Shown in pieces: positions 24,326 to 63,482 of a stretch of DNA of 64,000 bases (positions are counted from its first letter, which is position 1; each line of letters starts with the position of its first letter). The stretch is from assembly GCA_017993835.1 (NCBI GenBank), contig JAGOLX010000004.1:124001-188000 (forward strand). The letters run 5' to 3'. Both the position numbers and the translations under genes were made by a program. The notes beneath the pieces are model-generated. The model saw only the letters and a list, made by a program, of their open reading frames with translations, was not told where the DNA came from and ran no database searches. Origin of the DNA: Phycisphaerae bacterium. Its GTDB lineage: Bacteria > Planctomycetota > Phycisphaerae > Sedimentisphaerales > Anaerobacaceae.

Positions 24326-24334
24326 TCGGGTGGT

Positions 24335-24450
24335 CGCTAGGGGTGGCCCGCCGGGTGGCGGGCCTGAGAGAAGACCCTCCGAACCTGATCAGGATAATTG
24401 CCTGGAGCCGGATAGACGCACCAGGCCGATATGCCTGCGTAGGAAAGCGA
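24335..24450 (+). ncRNA. TPP riboswitch (THI element)
   Basis: The conserved thiamine-pyrophosphate aptamer blocks are present in order: ctaGGGGTGgcc, a GC hairpin, CCTGAGAgaagACCC, cGAACCTGATCaGGATAATtgCC, a variable P3-like arm, and the closing GTAGGAAAGCGA. It lies 130 bases upstream of thiC, the classic target. Binding of TPP is expected to turn expression off, here by termination at the hairpin directly downstream. Confidence 0.95.
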
Positions 24451-24477
24451 TGACAACGAAACGTTGGCCGTCTGGAG

Positions 24478-44750: not shown

Positions 44751-45938
44751 CTATGGCAACGGGATGACCTGCCAGCCTTCGGTGCCGAAGCGGATGTCCC
44801 GCTCGACGAACTCCCAGATGACGACCTTCTTGCCATTCAAGAGGGCCGGCTTCCTCGCCAACTGCTGGCGGACGAGCGTCGAGGCGCCGCCGTCGCTGAT
44901 GATGCTGCTCAGGCCGAAGCCGAGATTGTACGCGAGGTGGGCGACGAAGCCTCCGCTGCCGGGCTCGTCTCGCTCGAAGATCCGCAGGAAACTGTCGCCC
45001 AGGACCAGGATGGGCGAGTTCGGATCGTCCATGTAGGGTTTGCCGGTCCCCGAGTCGATCACCTGTGTGCAGTCCATTCGCTGTGGTTCGAAGAGCCGTT
45101 CCACCTGCGGCACGCGAATCATCTGGAGCACATCTCCATGTCGCTCAACTGGGACCGACTTCAGATCGTAGGCAGTCGTCCCTTTCTCTACCAATCCGGA
45201 ATCGAGGAGCCTGCGTGCAACCGTCTGGGCGGCCAATCGCATCCCTTCCGGCGACCAGTGGCTATCCTGGGCCAGATAGCACGCGGGACTACCCGGCACT
45301 TGGCAGGCCTTGCCAAAGACCTCGAAAAGATCGACGACCTCGACGCCAGCCTGCTCCAACCTCGCGAGAACCCCGCGGGTCGTCGGGTTCACGGGGGTTG
45401 TCATCCCAGCCGCCCTCGCCGCCAGCATCTCGGGACAGACGCTCGCCTTATTCGGCGCAGGCATCACGAGGAGCCTGATGCCGCGTTTGGCCAAGTCGTC
45501 GCGGAATGACACAATGGCATCGAGGAGGTCGTCTCGGGCGTTCGTAGTGACGCCGTCAGGCGTTACCTTCTTCTCGTCCGAGGGAAGATATGCCCTCACG
45601 GGCACACTACGAACAGGCTCGACGAGGTACTGCACCGCCGGGCGGTAGAAGAACCAGCCGTCGCGCCCGAGCAGAGCCTTGTCCCCTGTGTCCTCCAGGA
45701 GAACGAAGCGAGCGAACTGCATCCAGGGACGGGCCATCTGCGCCAGTTCGCACCCATTCTCCAGGCGGGTCTCGATGCGTCGGAGATTCGCGGGCGTCGG
45801 TGGTTGTCGGAACAGCTCGACGATCTCCGGCGTGTCGCCCTCGCGCAGGTCGAACACGACCTGGCTGACAGCCACGGCGGCGACCATCGCCAGGAAGGCG
45901 ACGATCAGGCAGACGTGTTGTGAGCAACTGGCCTTCAC
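44751..45938 (-). CDS. AlgJ/AlgX-like O-acetyltransferase (SGNH-fold)
   Basis: A 395-residue exported protein with one N-terminal membrane segment (VCLIVAFLAMVAAVAVSQVV). The AlgX/AlgJ-type SGNH domain has FFYRPAVQYL, MPAPNKASVCPEML, the catalytic D-x-H in AQDSHWSPEGM and the nucleophile block LGDSFLRIF. It would transfer acetyl groups, supplied by the MBOAT neighbour, to an exopolysaccharide in the periplasm. The GTG start is 8 bases after the MBOAT stop. Codons 109-133 are a 75-bp repeat element inserted exactly in frame in a loop between conserved blocks. Confidence 0.85.
   Translation of the reverse strand: MKASCSQHVCLIVAFLAMVAAVAVSQVVFDLREGDTPEIVELFRQPPTPANLRRIETRLENGCELAQMARPWMQFARFVLLEDTGDKALLGRDGWFFYRPAVQYLVEPVRSVPVRAYLPSDEKKVTPDGVTTNARDDLLDAIVSFRDDLAKRGIRLLVMPAPNKASVCPEMLAARAAGMTTPVNPTTRGVLARLEQAGVEVVDLFEVFGKACQVPGSPACYLAQDSHWSPEGMRLAAQTVARRLLDSGLVEKGTTAYDLKSVPVERHGDVLQMIRVPQVERLFEPQRMDCTQVIDSGTGKPYMDDPNSPILVLGDSFLRIFERDEPGSGGFVAHLAYNLGFGLSSIISDGGASTLVRQQLARKPALLNGKKVVIWEFVERDIRFGTEGWQVIPLP
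45540..45614. repeat. Cloverleaf repeat, in-frame coding copy
   Basis: A 75-bp element with the perfect 10-bp ends GTTCGTAGTG and CACTACGAAC, arms ACGCC-gtca-GGCGT and TGCCC-tcac-GGGCA, and a central arm with CTTC/GAAG. It matches the intergenic 71-bp copy at 50521-50591. It lies exactly on codons 109-133 of the AlgJ-like gene. Confidence 0.9.
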
Positions 45939-48917: not shown

Positions 48918-50192
48918 TTATGCGGGCCGGTTGAACTGCGGGACCTTCATCTGCTCGCCGCCTCGGAGGGCCGACTCGTGCGCGACGATGCCGGGGACGG
49001 TGTAGGCCAGCGCCTCGTAGACGTCCACCGCGGGCCGGCGGCCGTGCGTCAGCGCGTCGATGAACTCGTGCGTCAGGAACGTGTGCGAGCCGTAATGCCC
49101 GCTGTCGTGTCGCAGGGGCTCGGGCAGCATGTCGGTCTTCCACCAGGCGGGCTGCTCGTACCTCTCCATCTCGGGCAGGTCGCGAACGAAGCCCGCGTCG
49201 TCCTTCTCCTTGCGTCCCTCGGCCGACCGGACGATCACCGGCGGCAGCCCGGTCGGCTCGTCGCAGTAGAAGCTCATCTTGTTGCCGATCCACTGGGCCC
49301 GCTCGGTTCCGCGATGGGCTCCCTTCCACCAGACGTTGCAGCGGAAGGCGTGACCGCGATCCGTCTTGAACATGGCCGACTCGTTCCAGAAGGGGTTTTT
49401 GTAGACGTTGTCCTTGCAGATCGGGTCGTCGTCGCCCCAGCCGTAGCAGGAGACTTCGGTGAGCCGCTCGCCCGTGACGCCGGCGATGAAGGCGGTGCAG
49501 TGTGTCGGATAGTGCATGGGGGCCAGGCCGTGACGCCACGTCCGTTTGCCGTTCTCGAAGTAGAGCACTTCCAGGCCGGGATGCTGGTACTCGGCCTCGC
49601 AGTAGTAGATCTCGCCGAACTTGCCCTGCTCGTGGAACTTCCGCACGGAGATCGTCGGCTGCTGGTAGTAGCTGGTCTCGGCCATCATGTAGGTCAGGCC
49701 GGAGGTCTTCACCGCGTCGAGAAGCCGCTCGGCCTTCTCAACGCCGCCACCCAGCGACGCAGGCACCGCGGAAATCGCGTGCTTGCCGTGCTTCATCACT
49801 TCCGCGACGTGCTTGACGTGGTTCGGACCTTCGGTGAAAACCGCCACCGCGTCGATGTTCTTGTCGAGCACCAGTTCTTCGAGCGAGTTGTACGACTTGC
49901 TGCACTTGTACGTCCGCATCAACCCGTCGCGTCGTTCCGGGCGCAGGTCGCTGACCGCTTCGACGACGCAGTCCGGATGCTCGTGCCACTGGAAGCTCGT
50001 GCCGAATCCCCCGCCCACGACGCCGATCCGAATCCTCTTCGGCGCCGTATTGACCGCCAGGGTCGAATACAGGGGCAGTGCTGCGCCTGCGAGGGCGGCG
50101 CTGCGATGGAGGAATTCCCGCCGGGAGCACAAACGCGGTGATTGCTCGCGAACAGCCTGGGACGACGAACTCGTGTTGGACGAATCGATCAT
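48918..50192 (-). CDS. Gfo/Idh/MocA family oxidoreductase, Tat-exported
   Basis: This encodes 424 residues. The leader includes SRREFLHRSAALAGAALPLY (twin-arginine pattern). The Rossmann motif reads GVVGGGFGTS. The usual EKP signature is replaced by HAISAVPASLGG, so the catalytic lysine seen in other members is missing, as in many planctomycete paralogues. The ATG at 50192 is set by GAGGAG 8 bases upstream; the frame runs on upstream without features. Confidence 0.88.
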   Translation of the reverse strand: MIDSSNTSSSSQAVREQSPRLCSRREFLHRSAALAGAALPLYSTLAVNTAPKRIRIGVVGGGFGTSFQWHEHPDCVVEAVSDLRPERRDGLMRTYKCSKSYNSLEELVLDKNIDAVAVFTEGPNHVKHVAEVMKHGKHAISAVPASLGGGVEKAERLLDAVKTSGLTYMMAETSYYQQPTISVRKFHEQGKFGEIYYCEAEYQHPGLEVLYFENGKRTWRHGLAPMHYPTHCTAFIAGVTGERLTEVSCYGWGDDDPICKDNVYKNPFWNESAMFKTDRGHAFRCNVWWKGAHRGTERAQWIGNKMSFYCDEPTGLPPVIVRSAEGRKEKDDAGFVRDLPEMERYEQPAWWKTDMLPEPLRHDSGHYGSHTFLTHEFIDALTHGRRPAVDVYEALAYTVPGIVAHESALRGGEQMKVPQFNRPA

Positions 50193-50282
50193 AGCGAATC
50201 TCCTCAAACAAAGGGTTCTTTCGGCTCTGATAGCTACCACAGTGTCTCCAGGAATGCAAGGACTCGCGACACGATCCTGGCC

Positions 50283-50459
50283 GTGTTGGTTGTCACGCAG
50301 GTGCTCTCTGTCATCTTCGGCGAGCAGCTCTCCCACGAGGCATTCGAGCTGATTCACAAAGGTGGCGGAGCCCTCCTGCTCATCGGGATCGGTCTGCACG
50401 TCATCCTGAACTGGAGCTGGGTCCGCGCCAGCCTGCTGGTCCGCAGACACGCCCAGTGA
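50283..50459 (+). CDS. Possible small DUF4405-like membrane protein, start unresolved
   Basis: A hydrophobic frame includes TILAVLVVTQVLSVIF (from about 50259) and then FELIHKGGGALLLIGIGLHV with ILNWSWVRASLL. This is two helices with histidines in positions like those of DUF4405-type small membrane proteins. No ATG or ribosome site precedes it; a GTG at 50283 and a TTG at 50286 are possible starts. It could be a remnant whose 5' end was lost next to the oxidoreductase promoter. Confidence 0.4.
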   Translation: MLVVTQVLSVIFGEQLSHEAFELIHKGGGALLLIGIGLHVILNWSWVRASLLVRRHAQ

Positions 50460-50520
50460 CCCGGACCAGATCCGGCCGCAGAAAATGAGAACGGGCGGCA
50501 GTGTCAAGACCGAAGATGTT

Positions 50521-50591
50521 GTTCGTAGTGACGCCGTCAGGCGTTATCTTCCCTGCATATCCAGATATGCCCTTGCGGGCACACTACGAAC
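50521..50591. repeat. Cloverleaf repeat, intergenic copy
   Basis: 71 bp in which every base falls into a cloverleaf: closing stem GTTCGTAGTG/CACTACGAAC (10 bp); arm 1 ACGCC-gtca-GGCGT; arm 2 TATCT-(13)-AGATA; arm 3 TGCCC-ttgc-GGGCA. There are no unpaired bases between arms. It lies in the gap after the DUF4405-like frame. Confidence 0.9.
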
Positions 50592-50634
50592 AGGCTTCGC
50601 TTGACGCTGCCACCCGTCGATGAGAACCAAACGC

Positions 50635-50651
50635 GTGGGTTGAGAACCCAC
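50635..50651. terminator. Palindrome downstream of the ThuA gene
   Basis: GTGGGTT-gag-AACCCAC, a perfect 7-bp stem, followed on the right by ccctaca as in the palindrome at 2924-2940. It could end the minus-strand ThuA transcript but has no T-run. Confidence 0.35.
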
Positions 50652-50681
50652 CCTACACTTCCCGTGTCACGAGGCACGGGC

Positions 50682-51428
50682 CTATTCCGTCACCTTCCCC
50701 GTCGCGGCCCACTCCGTACCTCTCGTGATGATCTTCTGGACGTTCGGGGTCATCAGAGCCTTGCGGTCGTGGCCGAAGGCGTTGTGGACGACCCGGCCGT
50801 TGCCGTAGTTCTGCACGAAGATCAGCGGCTCGGTCTTCTTGCTCCAGTCCGAATCGGCGGTCACGAGCACCTGGATCTTGGCGTCGCCCTGGAGCTTGGC
50901 GTACAGCTCGTCATCGACCTCGAAATCGCCTAGACCCGCGGTGATCGGGTGCTGCTTGTCGACCACCTTCGCCTGGAACGGGGCACGAGGTCCGTGGCCG
51001 GAAGTGCCCATCACCCACTTGCGCCCGCACAGCTTGCCGAACTCCTCCCACTTGGGGAACGACGCGGTCGCCAGGTGCTGGACGAAAAAGCCCTTGCCGC
51101 CCTTGACGTAGTTCAGCAGGTTCTCCTGGGCCTGGGCGGGCAGTTCGGCCCGTTTCGCCGAGTAGATCAGGAACGCGATCACGTCGTAGTTCTTCAGCGC
51201 GGTCGCCGATTCGAGGATCAGCGGGTCCTCGGAGATCTTCACGTCGAACTTGCCCGAGTTGACCAGGATCTCGCGCGTGGTCTCGGACATCTCCCGCCAG
51301 GGATGGGCGGAGACGTCGTCGCCCGTGATGAGCAGGACCTTGATCGGCGCGGGTTTGGCCGGCTGGGCCCCCAGGCAGAAGACCATCGCCAGCATCGCAA
51401 CCCCAGTCACAACTTTCAATGAACGCAT
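50682..51428 (-). CDS. ThuA-domain (trehalose-utilisation-like) exported protein
   Basis: A 248-residue protein with a signal peptide (VVTGVAMLAMVFCLGAQPA) and a class I glutamine amidotransferase-like ThuA domain (IKVLLITGDDVSAHPWREMS, then GFFVQHLATASF). Planctomycetes have many such proteins, often near Gfo/Idh/MocA genes as here, with presumed roles in sugar metabolism. AAGGAGG six bases before the ATG at 51428 fixes the start. Confidence 0.85.
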   Translation of the reverse strand: MRSLKVVTGVAMLAMVFCLGAQPAKPAPIKVLLITGDDVSAHPWREMSETTREILVNSGKFDVKISEDPLILESATALKNYDVIAFLIYSAKRAELPAQAQENLLNYVKGGKGFFVQHLATASFPKWEEFGKLCGRKWVMGTSGHGPRAPFQAKVVDKQHPITAGLGDFEVDDELYAKLQGDAKIQVLVTADSDWSKKTEPLIFVQNYGNGRVVHNAFGHDRKALMTPNVQKIITRGTEWAATGKVTE

Positions 51429-51728
51429 GTCATTCCTCCTTGTCTGAACTCTCAATACAACTGCCTGCACAGGCTATGACTACCTCTGTCCTGCGAATCA
51501 CACGATCTCTACGCTCGTATCGTTGTCCACCACCTTTGGACTCACATTTCACCATCGTTTGGAGCAATCGATCCACGGCCATTCTAAGCCACAGCCGCAC
51601 CGGACGTAAATACTCAATCCGTATCCGTCTCGGGACAACAGATGTCGCGGCGAAGAATCGGTTTGACCCATGAGGCACATCTGGGTATAGTTGACGTGTA
51701 ATCTTGAGGATATGCGACGAGAGGAATC

Positions 51729-52883
51729 ATGGCGCAAATCCCGGAAAACTCCAAGGACATCGAGCTGTGGCTCAAGCTGATCCGGGCCGATGAGGTCGGG
51801 CCAGTGACGTTTGGGCGGCTCCTGAAGCGGTTCGGGTCGGTGGATGCGGCCCTGGGCGCCTCGGTCAGCGAGTTGACCAAGGTCGAGGGAGTGGGGTCCA
51901 AGACCGCTGAGCGGATCGCCGCAAGTCGCGACCAATTCAACGCCCGCGAGGAGTTGGAGCTGGCGGCCAGGCTGGGCGTCTGGCTCCTGCACATGGAAGA
52001 CGCCCGTTACCCCAGGTTGCTCAGGCAGATCTACGACCCGCCGCCAGTGCTGTACGTAAAGGGTACGCTGACCCGCGAGGACACGCTGGGCGTCGCGATC
52101 GTCGGCTGTCGGCGGTGCAGCCTGTACGGCCAGGAACAGGCTTCGCGATTCGCGCATCTATTGGCAGCAGCAGGCTTTACAGTCGTCTCAGGCATGGCCC
52201 GAGGAATCGATACCGCCGCTCACAGCGGCGCCTTGGCGGCCCAGGGTCGGACAATCGCGGTTCAAGGTTGCGGCCTGTCTCGCGTCTTTCCGCCCGAGAA
52301 CGCCAAGCTCTTCGAGCTCATCAGTGCTTCCGGGGCCTGCATTTCCGAGCTTCCACTGCAGGCCGAGCCCCTGGCAGAGCACTTCCCGCCCCGCAATCGG
52401 ATCATCGCGGGCCTGTCGCTCGGGACCCTCGTCATCGAAGCGGGCCTTCGATCCGGCGCCCTGATCACAGCCCAGACCGCCCTGGAGAGCAATCGCGAGG
52501 TCATGGCCATGCCGGGCAAGATCGACTCGCCTGTGAGCCAGGGTCCCCACCAACTCCTCAAGCAGGGCGCCAGGCTGGTCGAGTCGGTCGAGGACATCAT
52601 GGAGGCCCTGGGCTACGTCGGCGAGCAACTCAAGGACCACACGGCACTTACGACGAAGGAGGCCGTCGAGACGGTCGAGGCGCCGTTGTTCGACCCGGCC
52701 AAGTTCAACCTCAAGGGCCACGAGAAGACCCTCTACGACGCGCTCGGCAAAGAGCCTACGCACATCGACCAGATCATCGCGGATACGGACCTGCCCGCAG
52801 GTGCGGCCAACGCCGCGGTCATGTCGCTGCGTCTCAAGGGGCTCGTCAGGCAATTCCCAGGCAACTTGTTCGCAAGACGGTGA
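51729..52883 (+). CDS. dprA: DNA-processing protein DprA
   Basis: A 384-residue protein that binds single-stranded DNA and loads RecA during natural transformation. An N-terminal helix-hairpin-helix region (SELTKVEGVGSKTAERIAAS) is followed by the Rossmann-like DprA core: VGCRRCSLYG, SGMARGIDTAAHSGAL, FPPRNRIIAGLS and EAGLRSGALITA. The C-terminus holds a winged helix (THIDQIIADTDLPAGAANAA). The cysteine in VGCRR replaces the usual serine. GAGAGGAA precedes the ATG. Confidence 0.96.
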   Translation: MAQIPENSKDIELWLKLIRADEVGPVTFGRLLKRFGSVDAALGASVSELTKVEGVGSKTAERIAASRDQFNAREELELAARLGVWLLHMEDARYPRLLRQIYDPPPVLYVKGTLTREDTLGVAIVGCRRCSLYGQEQASRFAHLLAAAGFTVVSGMARGIDTAAHSGALAAQGRTIAVQGCGLSRVFPPENAKLFELISASGACISELPLQAEPLAEHFPPRNRIIAGLSLGTLVIEAGLRSGALITAQTALESNREVMAMPGKIDSPVSQGPHQLLKQGARLVESVEDIMEALGYVGEQLKDHTALTTKEAVETVEAPLFDPAKFNLKGHEKTLYDALGKEPTHIDQIIADTDLPAGAANAAVMSLRLKGLVRQFPGNLFARR

Positions 52884-59461: not shown

Positions 59462-59647
59462 TCCTAATGAGTTTTGACGGACCAGTTCGGTAGCGTGTAC
59501 GACTGCTTTGGCAGATTTCGTGCGCCTGGGTCGGAGTTCCTTCAGCCGACAGTAATGCGGCCCAGCCGCCCCCGGCTGGGATCACCCCCGAGGGCGGGGG
59601 TGCCACATGGTTCGATTGCCGATCTTGCTCGTCAAAACTCATAAGGA
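59462..59647. mobile_element. MITE-like element
   Basis: It is bounded by 20-bp inverted ends TCCTAATGAGTTTTGACGGA (59462-59481) and CTCGTCAAAACTCATAAGGA (59628-59647), with 17 matches and a 13-bp perfect core. The interior is non-coding and carries a perfect hairpin CACCCCCG-aggg-CGGGGGTG (59583-59602). No clear target duplication is visible. It lies immediately after the folC stop codon. Confidence 0.65.
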
Positions 59648-61907: not shown

Positions 61908-63383
61908 ATGCCACAGAACGCCAACTACTACATCGCGGTGGACCTCGGGGCCGAGAGCGGCAGAGTCATGCTGGGCCGGGTCGGTGAGGGGCGGCTGGAA
62001 CTCGAACCGGTGCATCGCTTCGCCAATGGTCCCATCGAGCAGGACGGATCGCTGCGATGGGATTTCGACCGGCTCCTGTCGGACATCAAGACCGGGATCG
62101 GCCTGGCGGCCAAGAAGGCCGGCGGCAAGGTCCAGGGCATCGGCGTCGATACCTGGGGCGTCGATTTCGGCCTGCTGGGCGAGGACGGAAAGCTCCTGGA
62201 GAAGCCCTACCACTACCGCGACAGCCGGACCAACGGCATGATGGACAAGGCCTTCGCGAAGATGCCCAAACGACAGGTCTATGAGAACACCGGCATCCAG
62301 TTCATGCAGCTCAACTCCCTCTACCAGCTCCTGGCCATGCGCCTGGCGAACTCGCCACCGCTCGCAAAGACCGAGCGGCTGCTGTTCATGGCCGACCTGT
62401 TCTCCTACTTCCTGTGCGGCAAGGCCATCGGCGAATACACGATGGCCAGCACCTCGCAGATGATGGACATGAAGACGGGCCAGTGGTCCAAGGCCATTTT
62501 CAAAGAGCTTTCGCTGCCGCTGGAGATCATGCCCCCGATTACGAAGCCCGGGACCGTCGTGGGCACGCTGACCGCGGAGGTAGCCAGGGAAATCGGCTGT
62601 GCCCAGATTCCGCTGATCGCCATCGGCTCGCACGACACCGCGTCCGCAGTGCTCGGCGTCCCCGGCTGCGGCGACCGCTGGGCCTACCTGTCCTCGGGGA
62701 CCTGGAGCCTGATGGGCGTCGAGCTGCCCAAGGCCATCGTCAACGACACAACGTTCGCCTACGAGTTCACCAACGAGGGCGGCGTCGAGAACACGATCCG
62801 ACTGCTCAAGAACATCATGGGACTGTGGCTCGTCCAGGAGTGCAAGCGCCAGTGGCAGCGTGACGGCCAGGACCTCTCCTACGGCGAGCTGACCCGGATG
62901 GCGGCCAAGGCCAAGCCCTTCTTCGGATACGTCAACTGCGACAACAGCGACTTCCTCGCGCCGGGCGACATGCCTTCGCGGATCAACAAGTGCCTGGCCG
63001 AAACCGGCCAGCAGCCCACGCAGGACAAGGGCCTGATGGTCCGCCTGGTCCTGGAGAGCCTGGCCCTGAAGTACCGCTCCGTGCTCGGCGCCATCGAGGA
63101 CATCACGGGCAAGAGCATCGACGTGCTCCACATCGTGGGCGGCGGAATTCAAAACGAGCTGCTGTGCCAGTTCACCGCCGACGCGACCGGACGCAGGGTC
63201 GTCACCGGTCCCATCGAGGCCACCGCCAGCGGCAACGTCCTGATGCAGGCCAAGGCGGTCGGCCAGCTCAAGAGCATCGACGAGGCCCGCCAGGTCGTTC
63301 GCAATTCCTTCGAGATGAAAGAGTACAAGCCACAGAACCGGGACCTCTGGGACCGCCAGTACAAGACGTTTGTCCGCTCGTAG
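61908..63383 (+). CDS. rhaB: Rhamnulokinase (FGGY family)
   Basis: A 491-residue sugar kinase phosphorylating L-rhamnulose. The first ATP-loop DLGAESGRVMLG is typical of rhamnulokinases. The substrate region WGVDFGLLGEDG, the SHDTASAV motif, the second phosphate loop LSSGTWSLMG and the adenosine-binding IVGGGIQNELLCQFTADATG follow. AAGGAGC lies before the ATG at 61908. The partner enzymes rhaA and rhaD are not in the window, although a class II aldolase is 25 kb away. The stop codon TAG is part of a repeat element. Confidence 0.93.
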   Translation: MPQNANYYIAVDLGAESGRVMLGRVGEGRLELEPVHRFANGPIEQDGSLRWDFDRLLSDIKTGIGLAAKKAGGKVQGIGVDTWGVDFGLLGEDGKLLEKPYHYRDSRTNGMMDKAFAKMPKRQVYENTGIQFMQLNSLYQLLAMRLANSPPLAKTERLLFMADLFSYFLCGKAIGEYTMASTSQMMDMKTGQWSKAIFKELSLPLEIMPPITKPGTVVGTLTAEVAREIGCAQIPLIAIGSHDTASAVLGVPGCGDRWAYLSSGTWSLMGVELPKAIVNDTTFAYEFTNEGGVENTIRLLKNIMGLWLVQECKRQWQRDGQDLSYGELTRMAAKAKPFFGYVNCDNSDFLAPGDMPSRINKCLAETGQQPTQDKGLMVRLVLESLALKYRSVLGAIEDITGKSIDVLHIVGGGIQNELLCQFTADATGRRVVTGPIEATASGNVLMQAKAVGQLKSIDEARQVVRNSFEMKEYKPQNRDLWDRQYKTFVRS

Positions 63384-63482
63384 TGACACCGTGAGGCGTT
63401 TCGTAGCACGGGCATCCTGCCCGTGGCAGGACAGGGGCAGGATGCCCCTGAGACTCACGGGCAAGATGCCCGTGCTACTACG
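63379..63482. repeat. Composite repeat: cloverleaf fragment plus 'cacgggcaagatgcccgtg' hairpins
   Basis: It begins with CGTAGTGACACCGTGAGGCGTT (20 of 22 bases like the cloverleaf repeat) and ends with ACTACG, able to close the same stem (CGTAGT/ACTACG). The middle is a different, widespread palindrome with CACGGGCATCCTGCCCGTG and CACGGGCAAGATGCCCGTG units. These give the peptide signature TGILPV...GQDARAT in spurious frames. The rhaB stop codon (63381-63383) lies in it. Confidence 0.8.

Follow-up and report, generated by a model that had tools for sequence, protein, structure and literature searches.

A dispersed DNA repeat with a cloverleaf fold in a Phycisphaerae bacterium is very probably a REPIN of the GTAG kind

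REPINs (BIMEs) are already known from many bacteria. In Pseudomonas fluorescens SBW25, two conserved REPs lie inverted on either side of a spacer that is poorly conserved, the copies are dispersed and fold into a hairpin or a 'clover', and the genome also encodes RAYTs (Bertels and Rainey 2011, PMC3116915). The 'clover' fold was proposed in that study to be the form likely recognised by the transposase (PMC3116915 Fig. S11). Di Nocera et al. (2013, PMC3733652) reported GTAG-tagged REPs and inverted dimers of them from the PVC superphylum, Planctomycetes included. Some of these dimers join REPs whose stems differ, the ends of the spacer can be complementary, a dimer may sit within a longer palindrome, and copies inside genes can add 20-30 codons in frame. 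In Marinomonas sp. MWYL1, REP-Mb, a demonstrated TnpA-REP substrate, is composed of GTAG, 2 bases, and a 10-nt palindrome interrupted by 4 nt (PMC8266576). The repeat family described here shares these features of layout, spacing, and occurrence. It differs from the SBW25 REPINs in sequence and phylum, and while a RAYT adjoins each REP group in SBW25, a cognate RAYT was not found here. It also differs from REP-Mb, which has another sequence and whose Group 3 REPtron includes an adjacent tnpA-REP of its own. We found no earlier account of this family, although it could be one of the 24 published GTAG families. The earlier note on this DNA was aware of no family of this shape described from Planctomycetota; however, both GTAG REP dimers (PMC3733652) and the REPIN 'clover' fold (PMC3116915) have been published.

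The window analysed here is a stretch of 64,000 nucleotides. The earlier note described a tRNA-like cloverleaf at positions 50521-50591. The sequence and coordinates given there are correct, and the minimum-free-energy DNA fold reproduced the 10-bp stem and the three arms, each with 5 bp and with loops of 4, 13, and 4 bases. This fold has a free energy of -20.3 kcal/mol compared to a shuffled mean of -7.05 (z -6.34; 0 of 200 shuffles as good), and the reverse strand adopts the same shape at -20.6 kcal/mol (z -6.35). The element and its immediate surroundings are composed as follows:

50521-50591, forward strand: the focal element, read as a 71-bp REPIN made of REP-A and an inverted REP-B with a short linker between them (sequence, fold, and model match)
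50521-50551, forward strand: REP-A, GTTC-GTAG-TG-ACGCC-GTCA-GGCGT-TATCTTC, with GTAG at 50525-50528 and the hairpin at 50531-50544 (sequence; 44-copy consensus)
50561-50591, reverse strand: REP-B, GTTC-GTAG-TG-TGCCC-GCAA-GGGCA-TATCT.., with GTAG at 50584-50587 and the hairpin at 50568-50581 (sequence; 44-copy consensus); its tail has decayed in this copy
50492-50508, forward strand: left arm of an outer palindrome that encloses the focal REPIN, CGGGCGGCAGTGTCAAG
50600-50616, forward strand: right arm of the same palindrome, CTTGACGCTGCCACCCG

The element occupies the gap between two convergent genes, 50142-50459 on the forward strand and 50682-51470 (ThuA-like) on the reverse strand. Nesting within the outer palindrome is truly found in 2 of 75 copies of this genome (G000), namely the focal copy and L074, according to a local count of flanks in which the hits were read.

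By reading 80 stretches around the 10-mer GTTCGTAGTG, we found that the family unit is GTTYGTAGTG-ACGCC-GTRA-GGCGT-TATCTTC, a loop, and then the reverse complement of GTTYGTAGTG-TGCCC-GTRA-GGGCA-TATCTTC. In each REP, a GTAG tag is thus followed by two bases, a hairpin of 5 bp with a 4-nt loop, and the tail TATCTTC; both halves carry GTAG-TG-hairpin, that is, a tetranucleotide tag ahead of a short palindrome. An alignment of 44 copies shows the two REPs inverted; the ends of the element are conserved, and its spacer varies. A length of 71 bp is the most frequent, and relatives also contain versions of 57-58 bp in which the central arm is shortened or lost. Because the two REPs have different stems, a three-armed fold is automatic, and the 'tRNA-like cloverleaf' is explained as incidental to an arrangement of two inverted hairpin units.

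The exact 10-mer occurs 93 times in the genome versus 8 times for its reversed control. A covariance model built from the 44 copies, among them the focal copy (84.0 bits) and the copy at 45540-45614 (83.6 bits), listed 126 matches in the genome of 6.4 Mb. Once second-strand matches of the same place are left out, these amount to at least 111 distinct places, a lower bound since only 150 candidates were scored. The view of the element as a structured repeat with many copies was therefore borne out. Copies have sharp ends and unrelated flanks, and they occur in both orientations. All 9 genomes of the genus carry the family, as does G015, and 31 other sampled genomes lack it. Searching 161 genomes of the order for the exact REP-A pattern gave 14 with a match (control 0) and added genera g31 and g40, which brings the family to 16 genomes in four genera of one taxonomic family. 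Planctomycetota have been little studied, and our data add a REPIN family to them.

Within the window, three further features belong to or interrupt this family:

45540-45614, forward strand: second REPIN copy, 75 bp, within an AlgX-like gene (44751-45938, reverse strand)
63376-63401, forward strand: half copy, REP-A only, interrupted by another repeat (model match of 17.3 bits; sequence)
63403-63478, forward strand: a different GTAG REP pair (GTAGCACGGGC..GCCCGTG, inverted) inside the half copy (0 expected by chance)

The window had been credited with three copies; two are full, and the third is the half element interrupted by the pair at 63403-63478. Compared to the focal copy, the copy at 45540-45614 retains the outer stem, arm 1, and the stem of arm 3, as had been noted, but the loop of arm 3, also thought to be unchanged, differs (TTGC versus TCAC). 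A GTAGCAYGGGC..GCCCRTG REP pair lies within the linkers of focal-family REPINs at 63376-63479 of the window and at L026, L038, L045, and L052. To judge from its positions, it looks as if this pair may have inserted repeatedly into such linkers.

We next considered occupancy of individual sites among relatives. The AlgX-like gene (Pfam ALGX, 100 bits) gains 25 in-frame codons from the REPIN (offset 324 nt). This site is occupied in G000 and G005 and empty in G001, G004, G006, G007, and G008; the insertion stretch varies in length among relatives, and we obtained no clean, unambiguous junction. Only 3 of 21 sampled G005 loci lie at a site that is also occupied among the G000 copies compared, the list of which is incomplete. 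Insertion sites are mostly species-specific. At G005:C289:21585-21710 (L179 / L279), which is orthologous to 50492-50616, a REPIN of the same family lies within the same outer palindrome in the opposite orientation, reflecting either an inversion or an independent insertion. In G004, remains of the palindrome lie at this site without a REPIN. Recent movement is not apparent among the G000 copies, the closest pair of which is 94% identical, and their flanks have a mild pyrimidine excess in the three bases that adjoin the element, which is insufficient to name a target.

Our data indicate that the element is very probably a REPIN, a head-to-head dimer of GTAG REPs that constitutes non-autonomous miniature mobile DNA, spread most likely by a RAYT acting in trans. 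In single-stranded DNA, the inverted feet would pair to give the 10-bp stem and the inverted REP tails would pair to give the middle arm. With different stems in its halves, the element would not collapse into a single long perfect hairpin, and each REP would keep its own hairpin. A RAYT (TnpA-REP, an HUH single-strand transposase) supplied in trans would then bind the GTAG-tagged hairpin, cut beside it, and join the excised REPIN to a new site.

The earlier note named two options, an RNA or a cruciform that a protein recognises, and it took conserved pairing despite sequence change as a sign of selection. A structured RNA (tRNA-like, cis-regulatory, or a small RNA) selected for its cloverleaf would account for the very stable fold (z -6.3) and for the double changes in the second hairpin (alignment columns 53-66 and 56-63), which are the clearest in the family. 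However, across the 44 copies double changes were found in 4 of 27 pairs compared to a shuffled mean of 4.4, cells that pair amounted to 92.8% versus 92.4% in shuffled alignments, and the covariation score of 0.097 was only slightly above the control level of 0.089 and was reached by 24 of 500 shuffles; these figures do not support the proposed conservation of pairing through sequence change. Nor has the central arm diverged with compensation: in both copies it is a decayed version of the 7-bp stem TATCTTC/GAAGATA, which is common to the family and encloses a hypervariable loop. At columns 4-73, the outer stem has no standard pair in 17 of the 44 copies, as each foot carries C or T independently of the other. 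Outer-stem counts are biased towards the foot sequence, as aligned copies were picked by an exact foot at one end. Furthermore, both strands fold with equal stability, copies lie in both orientations, no Rfam or tRNA model matches the element, and the family has inserted within a coding gene at a site where relatives lack it. We rejected an RNA element on strand symmetry, weak covariation, and absent family matches, and consider it extremely unlikely; of the two options in the earlier note, DNA together with a protein is the likely one.

A MITE of a classical DDE insertion sequence, with terminal inverted repeats and a target duplication, would likewise be short, with inverted ends, many copies, and sharp boundaries. 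We regard this origin as very unlikely, since no consistent target-site duplication was found in the listed flanks, a tag followed by a hairpin is how HUH/RAYT substrates are laid out, and the genome has RAYTs flanked by such repeats. The REPINs might instead be immobile and kept for a host role, such as a nucleoid protein or gyrase site, mRNA 3' end protection, or termination. Arms are on average 88.0% identical between G000 copies while loops are as different as shuffled loops (48.4% versus 48.3%), the focal copy lies between convergent genes, and most genomes lack a complete cognate RAYT. At the AlgX-like site, G000 and G005 differ at 3 of 50 arm positions and 7 of 25 middle positions, with flanking DNA approximately 80% identical, which hints at arm maintenance at this one locus within a coding gene. 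However, most sites are unshared even between G000 and G005, and conserved REPs with a variable spacer are also ordinary for mobile REPINs (PMC3116915). A host role in place of mobility is therefore improbable. We give an equally low probability to a broader proposal, that the arms are actively maintained by selection or gene conversion long after insertion, the loop being saturated, and that approximately 100 dispersed cloverleaf DNA elements, mostly in carriers without a complete cognate transposase, serve the host. The family offers a test case for the maintenance of REPIN arms once no matching transposase remains.

Returning to the REPIN reading, we asked which RAYTs could mobilise the family. 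This genome contains three REP-flanked RAYTs:

C65:44410: RAYT, 190 bits to NF047646, flanked by GTAGGGTGGGC..GCCCACC repeats
C37:114809: RAYT, 91.6 bits to NF047646, flanked by GTAGCCCAGCC..GGCTGGG
C62:89635 (gene at C62:89515): RAYT, 76.7 bits to NF047646, below the cut-off of 80 bits for this model, flanked by GTTYGGAGTTCCGCC-TTCA-GGCGG REPs

Two weaker RAYT relatives lie on C12. One genome thus shows several REP/RAYT systems side by side. The C62 protein matches the E. coli TnpA-REP 4er8 (E 0.005), and its clade has an invariant H91-Y92-H93 and a YVHHNP stretch. We found 20 relatives of this RAYT, mostly in PVC bacteria, and most of those with detectable repeats have a similar REP foot, typically GTTYG(T/G)AGT and in some cases with GTAG. 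Relatives in other phyla have GTTCGTAGTCCCGCC..GGCGG and GTTYGTAGTTCCGCC..GGCG on their flanks, which differ from the focal REP core by one mismatch. The REPs of the C62 clade (GTTYG(T/G)AGTNCCGCC-TTCA-GGCGG; L158, L306-L323) share with the focal REP a GTTYG foot, the tag, a 5-bp stem, and a 4-nt loop, and they have one or two core mismatches to it. They have TTCA/TTTA in the loop where the focal REP has GTRA, and they also differ from it in the outermost stem pair and in the base that precedes the stem.

No RAYT was flanked by the exact focal REP in the RAYT-flanking stretches examined from the 16 carrier genomes, whose draft assemblies break at repeats, and no reading frame between neighbouring REPIN copies (approximately 0.6-4 kb apart in G000, G001, and G045) was a RAYT. 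We therefore infer that the mobiliser may be a RAYT of the C62:89515 type or a lost sibling, and we put the chance that it belongs to the C62 clade at about even. Among carrier genomes, a complete C62-type RAYT was found only in G000. In G005, a 29-residue remnant of a C62-type RAYT, 66% identical, is located at G005:C202:15117-15206 (L334), and this suggests that G005 may have lost the RAYT while retaining its REPINs.

Other transposases of the genome were discarded as carriers or mobilisers. Focal-type REPs are absent beside the IS200/IS605 transposase at C39, RAYTs of the C65 and C37 types have unrelated REPs of their own, and tag-plus-hairpin repeats were not found beside those C12-type RAYTs that were examined. 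Repeats of these other systems also occur in the window. A single REP, GTAGGGTGGGTTCTCAACCCAC, lies at 50634-50656 on the reverse strand, 43 bp from the focal REPIN; in the relative G007, a REP of this kind flanks a C65-type RAYT (L155). A decayed copy of the REP that flanks the C37 RAYT, GCGGCCCAGCCGCCCCCGGCTGGG, is found at 59557-59580 on the forward strand.

Two RNA predictions were made elsewhere in the window. ARAGORN reports a 95-nt tRNA-Val at 52187-52281 on the forward strand, inside a long reading frame (51729-52883) that resembles dprA, and this prediction is probably a false positive. A TPP riboswitch (RF00059) is located at 24329-24462 on the forward strand, with 59.6 bits, above the gathering score.
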